64,000 bases of DNA from Anaerolineae bacterium (GTDB taxonomy: Bacteria > Chloroflexota > Anaerolineae > Anaerolineales > Villigracilaceae), in contig JAKLPV010000007.1 in assembly GCA_022013685.1 (NCBI GenBank), forward strand, positions 17,356 through 81,355, in the 5' to 3' direction. Made by a program: the position numbers and the translations under genes. The notes under the pieces are model-generated. The model had not been told where the DNA came from. It did no database searches and saw only the letters and a program-made list of their open reading frames with translations. This document shows, piece after piece, positions 4,573 to 49,730 of this stretch; the first letter of the stretch is position 1, and each line of letters starts with the position of its first letter.

Positions 4573-4631
4573 GGAGTCCGAAATCTCCTGATTTCGGTTT
4601 TCCAGAATCGGGAGACTTTGGAAAACTCCGG
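4573..4631. repeat. MITE-like double palindrome GGAGTCCGAAATCTCCTGATTTCGG ... AGAATCGGGAGACTTTGGAAAACTCCGG
   Basis: Halves are inverted copies; related copy 7009-7068 and half copy 23105-23134. Confidence 0.8.
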
Positions 4632-4639
4632 GCTTGAAC

Positions 4640-6606: not shown

Positions 6607-7716
6607 ATGCCCCAAGTAGCCTTTGAAACATGGAAAGAATTTATCGCCAGACAGCCCAGCCCTCACATTTTGCAGACCGCGGAATGGGGAGAATTAAAGA
6701 GGGCTTTTGGCTGGGATGTGGAACGGATTATCTCGGGCGATTTTGGCGTTCAGATTCTCTTTCGCAAATTGCCGCTCGGGTTTACGGTAGCGTACGCGCC
6801 AAAACCAGTGTTCAGTAGCCAGTATTCAGTAACCAGTAATCAGGCCCTGAGCGGAGCGGAGCGTAGTCGAAGGGCAGTAACCAATAATCAGTATCCGGTA
6901 TCTAGTGGTCAGTTGCCAGGAATCATTGATGAGTTGTTGAGTGAAATTGATGCGGTCTGCCACAAGAAACGCGCCGTTTTCTTGAAAATCGAACCCGATG
7001 CCTGGGAGTCCGAAGTCTCCCGACTTCGGAGTGATGTAGTCAGTCCAAAATCGGGAGATTTTGGACTCCGAATCAGTCCCCACAACATCCAGCCGCCGCG
7101 CACGGTCATTGTCTCGCTCGAAGGCTCGGAGGATGAGATTCTTGGTCGCATGAAACAGAAGTGCCGTTATAACGTGCGCCTGGCCGAGAAAAAGGAAGTC
7201 ACTGTCCGCGCCTGGGACGATCTGGACGGATTCCACCGTTTGATGGAAGTCACCGGCGGGCGGGACGGGTTTGGTGTCCACTCTTTGGCATATTACAAAA
7301 AAGCCTACGAACTGTTCCGCCCGAGCGGGGTGGCCGAGATCCTGGTGGCGGAGTTCGACTGCAGGCCGCTGGCTGCGCTGATGGTTTTTGCGCTCGGCGG
7401 GCGCGCTTACTACCTGTACGGCGCTTCGACCGACGAGGAGCGCAACCGCATGCCGACCTACCTGCTCCAGTGGCGGGCGATGCAGTGGGCCAAAGAACGC
7501 GGCTGCACCGAGTATGATCTGTGGGGCCTGCCCGACGAAGACGAAGAAACTCTCGAGGCTCAGTTTGAGTCCCGCTCCGATGGCCTGTGGGGCGTCTACC
7601 GCTTCAAGCGCGGCTTTGGCGGCCAGGTCAAGAGAGCGGCCCAGGCCTTGGATCGGGTGTATATGCCGTTGTTGTATTGGATATATTTGTGGCGGATGGG
7701 GAAAAATGTGGAATAA
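6607..7716 (+). CDS. FemAB-like aminoacyltransferase (peptidoglycan bridge formation / GNAT fold) with in-frame repeat inserts
   Basis: LQTAEWGELKRAFGW, RMKQKCRYNVRLAEKK, AYYLYGASTDEERNRMPTYLLQWRAMQWAKERGCTEYDLWG; ATG 6607 favoured over 6526. Confidence 0.88.
   Translation: MPQVAFETWKEFIARQPSPHILQTAEWGELKRAFGWDVERIISGDFGVQILFRKLPLGFTVAYAPKPVFSSQYSVTSNQALSGAERSRRAVTNNQYPVSSGQLPGIIDELLSEIDAVCHKKRAVFLKIEPDAWESEVSRLRSDVVSPKSGDFGLRISPHNIQPPRTVIVSLEGSEDEILGRMKQKCRYNVRLAEKKEVTVRAWDDLDGFHRLMEVTGGRDGFGVHSLAYYKKAYELFRPSGVAEILVAEFDCRPLAALMVFALGGRAYYLYGASTDEERNRMPTYLLQWRAMQWAKERGCTEYDLWGLPDEDEETLEAQFESRSDGLWGVYRFKRGFGGQVKRAAQALDRVYMPLLYWIYLWRMGKNVE
6811..6920. repeat. CAGTxxxCAGTAxCCAGTA tract plus CCCTGAGCGGAGCGGAGCGTAGTCGAAGGGC, inside a CDS
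   Basis: In-frame in FemAB-like gene, encodes SSQYSVTSNQALSGAERSRRAVTNNQYPVSSGQ. Confidence 0.85.
7009..7070. repeat. MITE-like double palindrome inside a CDS
   Basis: GGAGTCCGAAGTCTCCCGACTTCGGA ... TCCAAAATCGGGAGATTTTGGACTCCG; encodes SEVSRLRSDVVSPKSGDFGLRIS. Confidence 0.85.
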
Positions 7717-8264: not shown

Positions 8265-8283
8265 CCCTTCGACAGGCTCAGGG
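8265..8283. repeat. CCCTTCGACAGGCTCAGGG palindromic repeat
   Basis: Same motif class as 6841-6880 and 45049-45075. Confidence 0.6.
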
Positions 8284-11026: not shown

Positions 11027-11399
11027 TACTGAAAATTTCACTCCGCCTGCGCCAGTTGCCAGCGTGACCCTTCGTCACCCCGCAACTGGCGCATCGTTGT
11101 CTGGGGTTCTCCTGCTCATGGATAGCGGCGCGGATGTAACCTTGTTGCCACGCAAGGTTATTGAATCTCTTGAAATCACCCCAATCGCTGAAATTGGATA
11201 TGAATTACAAGGTTTCGATGGCAGCACGCAGGTTGCCCAAGCCGTTTCGCTCGAATTACTTTTTCGGGGTAAAAAATTTAGCGGTCAATTTCTTTTGATT
11301 GATGAGCCAATTGGAATATTGGGGCGAAATGTAATGAATGCTCTTCAACTCGTTTTTGATGGGCCGCGGCAAACCTGGGAAGAACTGAAAAGTGTCTAA
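11013..11399 (+). CDS. retropepsin-like (clan AA) aspartic protease family protein
   Basis: LLLMDSGADVTLLPRKV active-site motif, GILGRNVMN; overlaps upstream gene by 14 nt. Confidence 0.8.
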   Translation: MPVYDTENFTPPAPVASVTLRHPATGASLSGVLLLMDSGADVTLLPRKVIESLEITPIAEIGYELQGFDGSTQVAQAVSLELLFRGKKFSGQFLLIDEPIGILGRNVMNALQLVFDGPRQTWEELKSV

Positions 11400-12525
11400 T
11401 CCTTGGAACGAGATTATCGCCGCCTTGCCCAACCCGCACTTCCTGCAAACGTATGAGTGGGGACAGGTCAAGGCCCGGTATGGCTGGGAACCGATTTATC
11501 TGATCTGGGATTCAGAAGGAAAAATGAGAGAAGAAAAGGAAAAAAATCTTTCATCTTTCATCTTTCCCGCCAGAGCAGCCGCTTTGGTACTCAAAAAGAA
11601 GATTGTCAGCGGCGGCCTGGCTGCCCGTTTGTGTATCCTGTACGCCCCGAAAGGTCCGCTGCTCGATTGGGGCGATGATGCGCTTCGGACGCGGGTCCTC
11701 GACGATTTGCAGCGTTTTGCCCGTCAGCAGGGAGCGATCTTCCTGAAACTCGACCCGGACGTGGTGCTGGGAACCGGCATCCCTGGGGCAGAAACCGATC
11801 GCGCGGAACCGGGCGGCGAGGCCGTTCGCGCAGATCTGGTCCGCCGCGGCTGGCGATTCTCTGAAGATCAGATTCAGTTCCGAAATACGGTATTGGTCGA
11901 GGTTGGGACATCCACAGAAGAAGAAATTTTAGCCCGCATGAAGCAGAAAACGCGCTATAACGTGCGCCTTGGCCCGAAGAAGGATGTTGCAGTGCGCGTA
12001 GGCAACGAGAGCGACTGGCCGATGCTCTACAAGATGTACGCCGAAACCTCGGTGCGTGATGGCTTTGTCATCCGCGACCAGGGCTATTATCAAACGGTCT
12101 GGGGCTTGTTCAAAGGCATGGCCGAGCCGTTGATTGCCGAAGTCGATGGCGAGCCGGTTGCGTCGGTCTTCCTGTTTGCGTTTGGCGGGCGGGCTTATTA
12201 TGTCTATGGAATGAGCCGTGAAGCCCACCGCGAGAAAATGCCGACTTATTTACTGCAATGGGAGGCGATGAAATGGGCCAAGGCGCGCGGGTGCTCCACC
12301 TATGATCTGTGGGGCGCACCGGATGTGTTCGATGAAAGCGACAGCATGTGGGGGGTGTTCCGCTTCAAGGAAGGCCTGGGCGGGCAGGTGCTGCGCACGC
12401 TTGGCGCCTGGGATTATGCGCCAAACCCGCTGTGGTATGCGATATACACAAAAGTCGTCCCGATGCTGCTGGATGTGATGCGCTCGCGCGGCAAGGCGCG
12501 GGTCAGGCAGGGTTTGGGCGGATAA
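11392..12525 (+). CDS. FemAB-like aminoacyltransferase, second paralogue
   Basis: LQTYEWGQVKARYGW, RMKQKTRYNVRLGPKK, MPTYLLQWEAMKWAKARGCSTYDLWGAPD; GTG start overlapping upstream stop. Confidence 0.9.
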   Translation: MSNPWNEIIAALPNPHFLQTYEWGQVKARYGWEPIYLIWDSEGKMREEKEKNLSSFIFPARAAALVLKKKIVSGGLAARLCILYAPKGPLLDWGDDALRTRVLDDLQRFARQQGAIFLKLDPDVVLGTGIPGAETDRAEPGGEAVRADLVRRGWRFSEDQIQFRNTVLVEVGTSTEEEILARMKQKTRYNVRLGPKKDVAVRVGNESDWPMLYKMYAETSVRDGFVIRDQGYYQTVWGLFKGMAEPLIAEVDGEPVASVFLFAFGGRAYYVYGMSREAHREKMPTYLLQWEAMKWAKARGCSTYDLWGAPDVFDESDSMWGVFRFKEGLGGQVLRTLGAWDYAPNPLWYAIYTKVVPMLLDVMRSRGKARVRQGLGG

Positions 12526-20600: not shown

Positions 20601-20690
20601 ATTGTGTGACTGTAGTAATTGAGTGATTTTGTGATTTTCTATGACGAAATCGTTCAATCGCCAAATCACTAAATCACCAAATCAGGAGTT
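20601..20690. repeat. low-complexity AATCAC(C/T)AAATC repeat array
   Basis: gagtgattttgtgatttt ... caatcgccaaatcactaaatcaccaaatcagg; related arrays at 46692, 47121, 49728. Confidence 0.85.
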
Positions 20691-20694
20691 ACTT

Positions 20695-44403: not shown

Positions 44404-45030
44404 ATGTCCATTCGACACGCCCTGCTCGGATTACTTGCCCAAAAGCCACGCCATGGCTATGAACTGCGCGCTGCCTTTGAGGCGGTGGTCGGCGGTGCGG
44501 AAGCCTGGGATGTTAAACCTGCCCAGATCTACACCACGCTTGACCGCCTGGATGAAGCTGGTTTGGTCGAACGCCAATCTGACCTGGGGCAGGGCAGTGA
44601 ACCCGCTCGTCGGGTTTACGCCCTGACCGATGCCGGGCGGACCGCTCTGCACGAGTGGTTTGCCTGTGCGGTGGATAACCAGCACCAGCGCGACGAGTTT
44701 TTTGTGAAGCTGATGGTGGCGCTTTTTTCAGGCGAGGGCAACCTGGAAAAAATCATGCAAACCCAGCGCAGTCATCTGTATAAAGAAATGCACGCCATGA
44801 CGGCGCTGCGCGATGGTTACGATGTGCGCACAGGCATGGCCCAAATCCTGTTACTGGACAAAGCCATCATGCACCTCGAAGCTGACCTGCGCTGGATGGA
44901 GATCACCGAAATGCGCCTCGAAGCCATCAAAGGCCAGCCTTTCCCCGAACCGGAGATCCGCCCGAGGGGCCGGCCGCGCAAAGGCGACAAAGGTTCGACC
45001 TATCCGCCGCCGGTTTCCGGTAATCAGTGA
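44404..45030 (+). CDS. PadR family transcriptional regulator
   Basis: HALLGLLAQKPRHGYELRAAFE, WDVKPAQIYTTLDRLDEAGLVERQ, YALTDAGRTAL. Confidence 0.93.
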   Translation: MSIRHALLGLLAQKPRHGYELRAAFEAVVGGAEAWDVKPAQIYTTLDRLDEAGLVERQSDLGQGSEPARRVYALTDAGRTALHEWFACAVDNQHQRDEFFVKLMVALFSGEGNLEKIMQTQRSHLYKEMHAMTALRDGYDVRTGMAQILLLDKAIMHLEADLRWMEITEMRLEAIKGQPFPEPEIRPRGRPRKGDKGSTYPPPVSGNQ

Positions 45031-45076
45031 GCAGTGTCCAGTTCCAGGCCCTGAGCGAAGTACGAAATCGAAGGAC
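45014..45076. repeat. composite repeat: (N)ATCAGTx(A/G)xCAGT tract + CCCTGAGCG...TCGAAGGA
   Basis: Same two-part order as 6811-6915. Confidence 0.65.
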
Positions 45077-45992: not shown

Positions 45993-46694
45993 ATGACCAT
46001 CATCACGACTTCCAACCTGACAAAAATCTACGGCTCCGGCGCAACCGCCGTGACCGCGCTCGATCACGTTTCCTTGAAAATCGACCTGGGCGAGTTTGTT
46101 GCCATCATGGGGCCTTCCGGCTGTGGAAAATCGACCCTCCTGCATCTCATCGGCGGGTTGGACAAGGCCAGCGACGGCAGTGTTGCCGTCGCCGGGCACA
46201 ACTTGAACGACCTGAATGACGATTCCCTGACCGAACTGCGCCGCCGCAAAATGGGTTTTGTCTTCCAGTTCTACAATCTCATCCCGGTGCTGACAGCGCT
46301 CGAAAATGCCGCCCTGCCGGTTACGCTCGACGGGCTAAAACCTGCCGAAGCGCACAAAAAAGCCGCCGAATGGCTTAGTCGCTTCGGGTTGGGCGACCGT
46401 CTCAGCCACCGGCCAGACCAGTTAAGCGGCGGACAGCAGCAACGGGTTGCCATTGCCCGCGCCTTGGTGGCCGAACCGCAGCTGATCCTGGCCGATGAGC
46501 CGACCGGCAATCTCGATACCAAATCCAGCGACGAAATCGCCAGCTTGCTGCGCCAGGTTTCCAAGCAATATGGCCGCGCTGTGGTCATGGTCACCCACGA
46601 CCCGCGGATTGCCGCCTACGCCGATCGCATCATCTTCCTCAAAGACGGCAAAGTCGCTGAGGAAACGATTTTAGAGCGCAAGAAAACCATTTAG
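45993..46694 (+). CDS. ABC transporter ATP-binding protein (LolD/MacB-type)
   Basis: [51 protein letters not shown]. Confidence 0.96.
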
Positions 46695-46763
46695 TGATTT
46701 GGTGATTTAGAGATTGAGTGATTAAAAATCACCAAATCACTAAATCAAAAAATCACTCAATTC
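46692..46763. repeat. AATCAC(C/T)AAATC repeat array with inverted arms
   Basis: TTAGTGATTTGGTGATTT ... AAATCACCAAATCACTAA plus ATTGAGTGATT ... AATCACTCAAT. Confidence 0.9.
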
Positions 46764-47122
46764 CTTGCGGTTTTTCGTGAGGATGCCATGATTTTTAGAA
46801 TTTGCTCGGCTTCGTCAATCAGTTCAGCCAGCAATTCTGGTTTCACCAAACTGGCATCGCGGATGAGTTCCAACCAATATACGGTTTCGTCAGCCTCCTC
46901 CACTACGATGGATAGCTTTGCAATGAACATTGCCCCGCTTTGTGCCCGGCAAGCCGCCCGATAATTGGCACCCACTGAGGTTGCGCAGCGTAAAACCTGT
47001 TTGCCGAGAACGTCTGCAATCATGTTTTTGGGCAAAGTTTGAACCAACTTTACCACCCGTAATGAAAACGCTCGTGTTCTGGCTCGTAGCTCATCTGGAT
47101 TCATAAGACCTCCATAATTCAT
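46757..47122 (-). CDS. four-helix bundle (23S rRNA IVS-encoded/S23-like) protein
   Basis: LRVVKLVQTLPKN...DVLGKQVLRCATSVGANYRAACRAQSGAMFIAKLSIVVEEADETVYWLELI. Confidence 0.88.
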   Translation of the reverse strand: MNYGGLMNPDELRARTRAFSLRVVKLVQTLPKNMIADVLGKQVLRCATSVGANYRAACRAQSGAMFIAKLSIVVEEADETVYWLELIRDASLVKPELLAELIDEAEQILKIMASSRKTARN

Positions 47123-47177
47123 TTAGTGATTACGTGAATTATACAATCACCAAATCACTAAATCAGGAAATCACAAA
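47121..47177. repeat. AATCACCAAATCACTAAATC repeat array
   Basis: tttagtgattacgtgaattatacaatcaccaaatcactaaatcaggaaatcacaaa. Confidence 0.88.
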
Positions 47178-49730
47178 ATGTCCATTCAACTGACTCTCGC
47201 AACTCGCTATCTCCTCGGGCGCAAACTGCGCACCGTGCTAACCACCATCGCCATCATTTTTGGCGTGCTGCTGATCTTCGGCATGAACACCATCCTGCCG
47301 ACCATGATCGCTGCGCTCCAGGCCAACGTCCAGGGGGCGGAAGGCAATGTCGATTTCAGCATCGCCAGCGCCGCAGGCGGATCTTTCGACCCTGCCGCCG
47401 CCGAAAAACTGCGCGATCTGGATGGTGTGCGCGCCGTTTCGGCCTCGCTCCAGCGCAGCATCAACTTACCCGCTGATTTTGTGGATGGAAACCCCGCCCG
47501 CCTCGACACGCTGACCGCCGTCAATTTGATGGGGATTACCCCGGAAGTTGCCCGCTCGATTCGCGCCTTCCCGATTGTCTCGGGCCGTTATCTGGATGAT
47601 TCTGACACTGCGGCAGCGGTCATCACCCAAACCCTGGCGGATTCTTTCTCGATCCGGTTGGGTGACACGCTGACGCTCCCCTCTGCGGCTGGAAGCGCCC
47701 AACTGACCATCGTCGGTCTGCTGCCCGGACGCCTGGCCTCCGGTAACGAGGAAGTCTTCGTTACATTGGCCCAGGCCCAGAAAATGACCGGCGAAACCGG
47801 CAAAGTCAACCTGATTGAACTGAACGTTGAAGCCATGGCCGGCCAGGAACGCCGCGACGCCATCCAGGCAAACATCGAAGCCACGCTCGGGGACAGTTTC
47901 CGGGTTGGGACGCTGGTGGCAGGCGATGAACTCTTCGCCACCATGGAAATGGCCCAGGTCGGGCTGAGCATTTTCGGTATGTTGGCTTTGTTCATGGGCG
48001 GGTTTATTATCTTCAATACCTTCCGCACCGTGGTCAGTGAGCGCCGCCGCGATATTGGCATGCTGCGCGCCCTCGGCGCCACCCGCCGCACCATCCTCGG
48101 CATGATTTTGGCTGAGGGCCTGATCCAGGGCCTGCTCGGTTCGGGACTCGGCTTGTTCTTTGGCTACTGGCTGGCGGTGGGCACCATGCGCCTGGCCCAG
48201 GGGCCGATGAGCGCCTTTATCAATATCCAACTTGGCTGGCCGGTCATCTCGCTCGAACTTATTCTCATTTCGATACTGGCGGGTGTCGGTGTGACAGTAC
48301 TGGCCGGGCTGATTCCGGCCTTCGCAGCCAGCCACGTCACCCCGCTCGAGGCCCTGCGTCCATCAACGGCAGAATCGACCGTCAAACGGGATGCTGGCAG
48401 GGGGGCGATTGCCGGCCTGGCTATCGCCATCCTCTCCGTTGCAGCGATTTTTTCCGGTCAAGCCGCGCTGATCATGCCTGGCGGTCTGTTCTTCCTGTTG
48501 GGGTTGATCCTGATTGCCCCGGCACTGGTGCGCCCGTTTGCGCTGCTCTTTGGGCGGCTGACGGCGGTCATCTTTGCCCGACAAGGCATCGGCGGCCTGG
48601 CGCAAAGCAACCTGACCCGCCAGCCGACCCGCGTAGCGGTGACGGCTTCGGCCAGTATGCTCGGCCTGGCGGTGATTGTGGCTGCGGGCGGAGTGGTTTC
48701 GAGTATGACCGGGATGTTGGGCGGGATGATTAAGAGCAGTCTGGGCAGTGATTACCTGCTGGTGCCGCCAGCGATCGGCGTATGGGGCACCAACGTCGGC
48801 GCGATCCCTGAGTTTGCCGACCGCCTGCGTGACTTGGACGATGTGAATGCCGTCAGCACCTTCCGCTACGGCACCTCGAACGCCAACGGGCTGGCCGTTT
48901 CGCTAATTGGGATTGAGCCGGAAGCGTTTCAGCAGGTTAGCGGGTTGGTTTTCAGCGATGGAAACGAGTCAATCTATGACAAACTGGATGATGACCGCGT
49001 GCTGATTGTCAACGGTCCCTTCCTGGTTGCCACCCAGGCCAAAGTTGGTGACACCATCGAGCTGCTGACTCCCACCGGGCGCGTCACCTATCAGATTGCG
49101 GCCTCCGCCACCGACCTGCTGAACGCCAAATTGACCACGGCTTATCTCTCGCAGGCCAACCTGCAAGCTGATTTTGGCGCCACTGAGGATGTTTTCCTGC
49201 AAATTGACCTGCGCGACGGCGCCGATCACGAGGCTGTTGGGACGCAAATCAAGACCCTGGCGGCGGATTACCCGCAGTTCAAGGTCATCTCTGGCGCAGA
49301 TTACTATGCCTCGCTGATGGGTTTGATGGATGCCGCGTTTTACGCAGTCTATATCTTATTCGCCATCCTGGCCTTCCCCTCGCTGATTGCCATGCTCAAC
49401 ACATTGACGATTAACGTCATCGAGCGCACCCGCGAAATTGGCATGTTGCGGGCAGTCGGCAGCACGCGCAAGCAAATCCGCTCATTGGTGGTAGCCGAGG
49501 CTTTGCTGCTGGCCGCGCTCGGCACAGTCTTCGGCATCTTGGGCGGGCTGTACCTGGGCTACGTTTTCGTCACCGCAATTGACGTGATGTTCCCGATGGG
49601 CTACTACTTCCCCTTGAGCGGGATCCTGGCCGCGATTGCGATCGGCCTGCTCTTTGGCGCTATAGCAGCGATCATTCCCGCCCGCCAGGCCGCCGGGATG
49701 AATGTGGTCGAGGCGCTCAGGTACGAGTGA
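47178..49730 (+). CDS. ABC transporter permease (two FtsX domains, MacB-like core)
   Basis: MLRALGATRRTILGMILAEGLIQGLLGSGLG and MLRAVGSTRKQIRSLVVAEALLLAALGTVFG. Confidence 0.94.
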   Translation: MSIQLTLATRYLLGRKLRTVLTTIAIIFGVLLIFGMNTILPTMIAALQANVQGAEGNVDFSIASAAGGSFDPAAAEKLRDLDGVRAVSASLQRSINLPADFVDGNPARLDTLTAVNLMGITPEVARSIRAFPIVSGRYLDDSDTAAAVITQTLADSFSIRLGDTLTLPSAAGSAQLTIVGLLPGRLASGNEEVFVTLAQAQKMTGETGKVNLIELNVEAMAGQERRDAIQANIEATLGDSFRVGTLVAGDELFATMEMAQVGLSIFGMLALFMGGFIIFNTFRTVVSERRRDIGMLRALGATRRTILGMILAEGLIQGLLGSGLGLFFGYWLAVGTMRLAQGPMSAFINIQLGWPVISLELILISILAGVGVTVLAGLIPAFAASHVTPLEALRPSTAESTVKRDAGRGAIAGLAIAILSVAAIFSGQAALIMPGGLFFLLGLILIAPALVRPFALLFGRLTAVIFARQGIGGLAQSNLTRQPTRVAVTASASMLGLAVIVAAGGVVSSMTGMLGGMIKSSLGSDYLLVPPAIGVWGTNVGAIPEFADRLRDLDDVNAVSTFRYGTSNANGLAVSLIGIEPEAFQQVSGLVFSDGNESIYDKLDDDRVLIVNGPFLVATQAKVGDTIELLTPTGRVTYQIAASATDLLNAKLTTAYLSQANLQADFGATEDVFLQIDLRDGADHEAVGTQIKTLAADYPQFKVISGADYYASLMGLMDAAFYAVYILFAILAFPSLIAMLNTLTINVIERTREIGMLRAVGSTRKQIRSLVVAEALLLAALGTVFGILGGLYLGYVFVTAIDVMFPMGYYFPLSGILAAIAIGLLFGAIAAIIPARQAAGMNVVEALRYE

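Follow-up and report, generated by a model that had tools for sequence, protein, structure and literature searches.

Across 95 non-redundant Anaerolineae orthologues of a FemAB/FemX-like aminoacyl transferase, we found that the same two loops have been filled repeatedly and independently, and in frame, by repeats of many kinds. One of these genes lies in the 64-kb window (the whole stretch of DNA that was analysed), where the following features were identified.

6607 to 7716, plus strand: FemAB/FemX-like aminoacyl transferase gene, 369 aa (Pfam FemAB, 4.1e-35)
6804 to 6847, plus strand: CAGTNNN heptamer tract (a lag-7 tract), the 5' half of insert 1 (loop 1)
6845 to 6874, plus strand: interspersed element CCCTGAGC-GGAGCGGAGCGTA-GTCGAAGGG (CCCT element) within the heptamer tract, reading ALSGAERSRRA
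6875 to 6918, plus strand: degenerate heptamers, the 3' half of insert 1, whose end (~6918) was set by comparison with L012/L013, which lack the insert
7005 to 7069: insert 2 (loop 2), an inverted REP doublet, REPIN-like, reading ESEVSRLRSDVVSPKSGDFGLR
7005 to 7030, plus strand: REP-like hairpin A, GGAG followed by TCCGAAGTC TCCC GACTTCGGA
7044 to 7069, minus strand: REP-like hairpin B, inverted, GGAG followed by TCCAAAATC TCCC GATTTTGGA
4573 to 4625, plus strand: another, degenerate REP doublet in intergenic DNA, immediately 5' to the gene that begins at 4634
8265 to 8283, minus strand: second CCCTGAGC..GTCGAAGGG copy, short form, in a gap between ORFs
11392 to 12525, plus strand: FemAB paralogue, with no heptamer tract in the window copy
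45025 to 45074, plus strand: second composite, in which a degenerate CAGT tract precedes a likewise degenerate CCCTGAGC..TCGAAGG element

Membership of the encoded protein in the FemAB family is supported by both profile match and fold, the top Foldseek match being FemX (6snr; TM 0.73). Sequence family and fold are held in common with the FemX/FemA peptidyl transferases (6snr, 1ne9 and 1lrz), from which the window protein differs in possessing repeat-derived loop inserts. This FemX-like identity in Chloroflexota rests on sequence family and fold; substrate, function and tRNA-dependent transfer of amino acids to a peptidoglycan precursor are untested. The reading frame runs open through both inserts, and would extend back to 6526 with use of an upstream ATG. 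Comparison with L012 gave a dN/dS of 0.08 over 211 C-terminal codons, and values of 0.08-0.12 for the enzyme core show that it is under purifying selection (dN/dS ~0.1). An AlphaFold (AF2) model built with 55 sequences had a mean pLDDT of 88, with values exceeding 90 over most of the core, below 50 for the greater part of insert 1 (residues 77-83 and 88-103) and of ~56 in insert 2 (residues 141-150). Based on this low model confidence, both inserts are predicted, with reasonable confidence, to form disordered loops.

In loop 1, the CAGT heptamer tract, which is the sole strong lag-7 (7-nt) tract in the window, leads into CCCTGAGCGGAGCGGAGCGTAGTCGAAGGG (6845-6874), with degenerate heptamers after it. 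The interspersed element has the structure CCCTGAGC(N13)GTCGAAGGG, and the pattern CCCTGAGC-N2-25-GTCGAAGGG returned 50 matches in the 5.28-Mb genome compared with none for a reversed-pattern control. The count of CAGT(N3) tetrads in the window genome provides only weak evidence, since the reversed control also scores (18 matches vs 29), and the codon phase of CAGT carried no information, because 7 nt cycles through all phases. Relative to same-genus orthologues, insert 1 represents a net gain of ~36 residues: the sites of L012 and L013 are empty, their loop 1 sequences being PVSGFEKLLPEID and PVSGFEQLLPEID, compared with PV-(~36 aa)-LPGIIDELLSEID in the window gene. A hairpin interpretation of the window CCCT element was rejected, its folding being no better than that of shuffles. 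Among the CCCT copies of the window genome (G000), the core between CCCTGAGCGGAG and AGTCGAAGGG was observed to vary from copy to copy and is often a small inverted repeat (CG..CG, GGC..GCC, GGGC..GCCC or CCGC..GCGG), a pattern that looks as if the inner stem had been exchanged. The window also contains period-8 tracts (AAATCACT/AAATCACC; 20603-20692, 46681-46766 and 47135-47186), occurring in both orientations near gene starts and unlike the heptamers in unit length.

Insert 2 consists of a GGAG-hairpin, a 13-nt spacer and an inverted hairpin-CTCC, with a DNA fold of -21.9 kcal/mol (z = -6.4). Relative to same-genus orthologues it takes the place of a loop of similar length, other material being present at that site. 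Searches with the hairpin pattern (at most one mismatch) identified 30 genomic matches, with none for the control, and among the 61 genomes searched the pattern was restricted to the same family (18 of 61). The hairpin stems covary: at the three stem pairs left free by the search pattern, 90 of 90 cells across the 30 copies were paired, with compensatory changes among C-G, G-C, A-T and one G-T at one pair, and G-C/A-T at another. Inverted partners were found within 70 nt for 17 of the 30 copies, every one on the 3' side. An Rfam scan of the window matched no family. Linkage of the REP doublets to a RAYT was sought and none was found; nor was a RAYT (Y1, HUH) transposase found in the window genome, an absence which is not final in a draft genome. 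That genome has a single PF01797 (Y1_Tnp) match, a protein of 548 aa with no HUH motif that could be read, and the congeners G001-G003 each have a single PF01797 match (E 1e-13 to 1e-15) of similar ORF length. Insert 2 resembles a REPIN in structure; membership of a RAYT-served class is not shown. As a separate observation, the 548-aa protein (L009 250-1896; G000 C20) carries its Y1 transposase-like domain C-terminally. Comparably long ORFs are matched in the majority of the 61 genomes, suggesting a domesticated transposase domain with a cellular role.

A preliminary description of the window, made from the letters alone, had claimed that two segments of this gene are dispersed repeat DNA, are inserted in frame, and are extra relative to the paralogue. 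Dispersal of both repeats held and their identity as repeats is shown by the counts above; their positions and frame also held. The comparison with the paralogue held only in part, as insert 1 alone is extra and, at loop 2, the paralogue has a longer segment than the window gene. The description would have been refuted by a lack of further genomic copies, or by orthologues all sharing the segments at the protein level; many further copies exist, the segments are not common to the orthologues at that level, and the empty loop 1 sites and predicted disorder reported above are the outcomes of two further checks that it proposed. Its term "mobile" remains an inference from copy number, doublet structure and sister species without the element, no transposase having been found, and its palindromic-element reading is not apt for the CAGT part, which is a heptamer tandem tract.

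Counting copies inside genes, we also identified nine other conserved genes of the window genome with in-frame copies, in which Pfam domains cover or flank the insert. REP copies occur in frame in threonine synthase, an HI0933-like oxidoreductase, an ABC ATPase and aconitase, and CCCT copies in PriA, galactokinase, an aminodeoxychorismate-synthase-like protein, a MinD-like ferredoxin ATPase and DUF2344. This census was limited to fetched copies (47 CCCT and 27 REP), and an ORF was counted as a gene only with Pfam support. The aconitase insert spans ~18 aa, with no residues there in the PDB relative 2b3x; in threonine synthase the REP encodes part of the protein with no clear change in length. 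It was also observed that the CCCT element of PriA (L162) encodes RPSTALSLRSGL, directly ahead of a zinc-binding cysteine motif.

A collection scan yielded 80 named Anaerolineae loci which, together with relatives, comprise the 95 non-redundant orthologues, mostly from uncultured Chloroflexota bacteria. One locus with stop codons was excluded from alignment. Strong heptamer tracts were identified in loop 1 of 36/95 and in loop 2 of 41/95, against null means of 0.02 and 0 for same-length gene-body windows, and other periods accounted for 0-1 tracts in both loops. Pooled lag-7 identity was 0.425 in loop 1 and 0.403 in loop 2, compared with 0.254 +/- 0.007 in gene-body windows. Units in loop 1 are mainly CAGTNNN, and those in loop 2 include CAATTAC, ACCTGAA, TTTCATC, ATTCATC, CTTACCA, CTTTCCA, ATTCCGC, AGAATTC and others. 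REP doublets occupy one site in three genes (the window gene L010, L084 and, tandemly duplicated, L088), and the genomes of L084 and L088 contain additional copies of their REP variant. Heptamer tracts contain CCCT-type elements in loop 1 of L010 and L019 and in loop 2 of L081 and L095, and CCCCTCTCC-type elements were identified in the loops of L035 and L104.

When loop-2 class was mapped on a quick maximum-likelihood tree from which the loops had been left out (support moderate, SH-aLRT only), at least 35 changes were required, a number which overstates replacements because slightly different heptamers were scored as separate classes. Recurrence of the REP doublet does not depend on this scoring: L012, with ATTCCGC heptamers, is the sister of the REP-bearing window gene, and L084 and L088, also REP-bearing, fall in another clade. 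Differently filled sites in sister species and independent recurrence are thus shown and, since sister species differ in loop content, turnover is fast. In many other species the tandem paralogue also possesses heptamer tracts, in loops other than those of the window gene. Such tracts were seen in L019, L024, L067, L074, L080, L088, L127 and others, the L019 paralogue also carrying a PALSEVEG-coding CCCT element.

Lengths of tract-bearing loops were in most cases 16 or 23 aa for loop 1 and 13-14 or 20-21 aa for loop 2, mostly 7 residues (three heptamers) apart. These steps fit gain and loss by whole units filtered by frame, with slippage as the length mechanism being inferred. None of the 77 tract-bearing loops contains a stop in its own frame, as required of an open gene; their other two frames contain stops in 39 and 58, and most wrong-frame entries would therefore be lethal to the protein. 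To relate loop units to their hosts, four units were counted in 61 genomes, with the loop copy itself included. G020, which carries CAATTAC in loop 2, ranked top for that unit (138 tracts; next 19), and the owner of the CTTACCA loop, G027, ranked first for its own (12; next 5). For ACCTGAA the match was partial, G006 ranking second among the 61 genomes (14) and G031 having only 2, and the rule fails for TTCATC, where loop owners G034 and G008 have 2 and 4 matches and G019 has 59. A correspondence between the loop unit and units abundant in the host genome is consequently suggestive and not general. Across the loci compared, lag-7 tract density per kb was 1.13 in this FemAB gene, 0.70 in the paralogue, 0.56 in intergenic DNA (a small sample, 14 kb) and 0.14 in other ORFs; the last class takes in a single run of N and a mislabelled FemAB tract, such that the true contrast is slightly larger.

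Taken together, these findings are best explained, in our judgement with good probability, by tolerant surface loops that sample the repeats of their own genome, with a filter for frame. A conserved FemX-like enzyme would have two loops that tolerate foreign sequence and so act as a catch-site for short repeats of the host genome. Heptamer tandem tracts may arise or arrive in these loops and then lengthen or shorten by whole units, with the reading frame permitting no step smaller than three units (21 nt, 7 residues), and REPIN-like hairpin doublets and CCCTGAGC..GTCGAAGGG elements may insert into or replace a loop or tract. Selection would purge out-of-frame and stop-containing outcomes while preserving the core of the enzyme. 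For the window species, this would mean that loop 1 acquired a CAGT tract, which a CCCT element interrupts, and that loop 2 acquired a REP doublet. Insertion as the route and near-neutrality of the inserts are inferred, and the mechanism of insertion and any benefit are not shown. Several observations weigh against this explanation. The higher tract density of the gene than of adjacent intergenic DNA exceeds what passive tolerance by itself would predict, within the limits of the small intergenic sample, and the match to unit abundance is incomplete. Furthermore, loop-2 units of neighbours differ by few bases, such that drift and homogenisation could mimic replacement, and the REP doublet has no identified transposase.

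An alternative, which we consider unlikely, is that loop peptides are selected for a shared property (e.g. amphipathic, flexible, membrane- or lipid II-facing), with repetitive DNA merely the easiest supply of such peptides. In its favour, most tract-bearing species keep loop lengths within narrow bounds (16 aa for loop 1, 13-14 aa for loop 2) and different units often end in an alternating hydrophobic stretch (FIIHHSSFII, PITNYQLLL, TWNLKLET). Conversely, loop sequences are unrelated in sister species, REP, CCCT and CCCCTCTCC elements of differing composition and length (up to 45 aa) occupy the same sites, and many orthologues have short non-repeat loops. A bolder reading, also improbable, is that FemAB loops are fed genome repeats faster than neighbouring DNA and that the resulting variety tunes the enzyme (substrate, partner or surface); if true, this would constitute a repeat-driven protein-diversifying process. 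Less probable still is that FemAB genes represent a targeted hot spot, to which recombination or diversification directs repeats in order to vary an envelope enzyme. Tract density in the gene is about two-fold that of the flanking intergenic sample and about eight-fold that of other coding DNA, the tandem paralogue is also tract-bearing, and REP doublets occur at the same codon position in two clades; however, the same elements occur in many unrelated genes of the window genome, and the density comparison of tract-bearing loci is limited to 2.5-kb flanks. An artefact (pseudogene, misassembly or spurious ORF), which might be suspected from a fragmented assembly (239 contigs, 5.33% contamination), is all but excluded by the low dN/dS, by intact profile matches and by 95 orthologues, drawn from many independent assemblies, whose frames are open and whose cores are conserved.

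The role of selfish repeats in building proteins is usually argued from single insertions. Here, one enzyme family provides dozens of natural replicates at the same two sites, and closely related empty, heptamer-filled and REP-filled states make rate, frame filter, step size and fitness cost measurable. So-called "junk" repeats keep turning into parts of what appears to be a working protein, the enzyme activity being untested. Within the open-licence literature searched, we found nothing combining FemAB, Anaerolineae or Chloroflexi and repeats, and no account of one enzyme family having its same loops refilled by repeats.

Insert 2 shares with known REP/REPIN sequences (PMC3116915) a short imperfect palindrome following a fixed tetranucleotide (here GGAG and a 22-nt hairpin), inverted doublets forming a larger hairpin, and genome dispersal. 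It departs from the GTAG- or CGTC-tagged REPs, some of them intragenic (PMC3733652), in its GGAG tag, in the lack of a detected HUH/RAYT-type transposase in the window genome, and in same-site acquisition in distant Anaerolineae clades. Intragenic REP dimers or groups encoding 20-30 aa have been described, as have REPs at about the same site in recB of two Xanthomonas species (PMC3733652). The heptamers meet the description of bacterial heptamer repeats, being 7-nt tandem units dispersed in the genome, of which TAACTGA direct repeats, intergenic heptamers of Beggiatoaceae and cyanobacteria (PMC4679880), and GGGAATC-type heptamers (PMC4692102) are examples. The reverse TAACTGA repeat, reported in 11 ORFs (PMC4679880), is a CAGT heptamer encoding LSVISYQ, nearly the LSVISDQ found here. 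TAACTGA and GGGAATC heptamers are mostly intergenic, and in proteins lie mainly near the ends, whereas the Anaerolineae heptamers, with more than 10 unit types across species, occupy two internal loops of a conserved enzyme, and heptamer repeats thereby gain a phylogenetic record inside a conserved gene. The preliminary description had likened the inserts to the palindromic elements of Rickettsia protein-coding genes (Ogata et al. 2000, 2002, as described in PMC10969869), which is supported in kind and proved too narrow. As with those elements, dispersed palindromic repeats lie in frame in many unrelated conserved genes (the nine Pfam-supported genes besides FemAB); the likeness is by analogy and concerns the in-frame pattern only, no Rickettsia sequences having been compared. 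Unlike the rickettsial case, several unrelated repeat classes are involved, including non-palindromic heptamer tracts, and the same two loops of one orthologue family are refilled in many species. The phenomenon is thus confirmed as similar in kind to that of Rickettsia and much wider, extending to several repeat classes, many genes and two repeatedly refilled loops.
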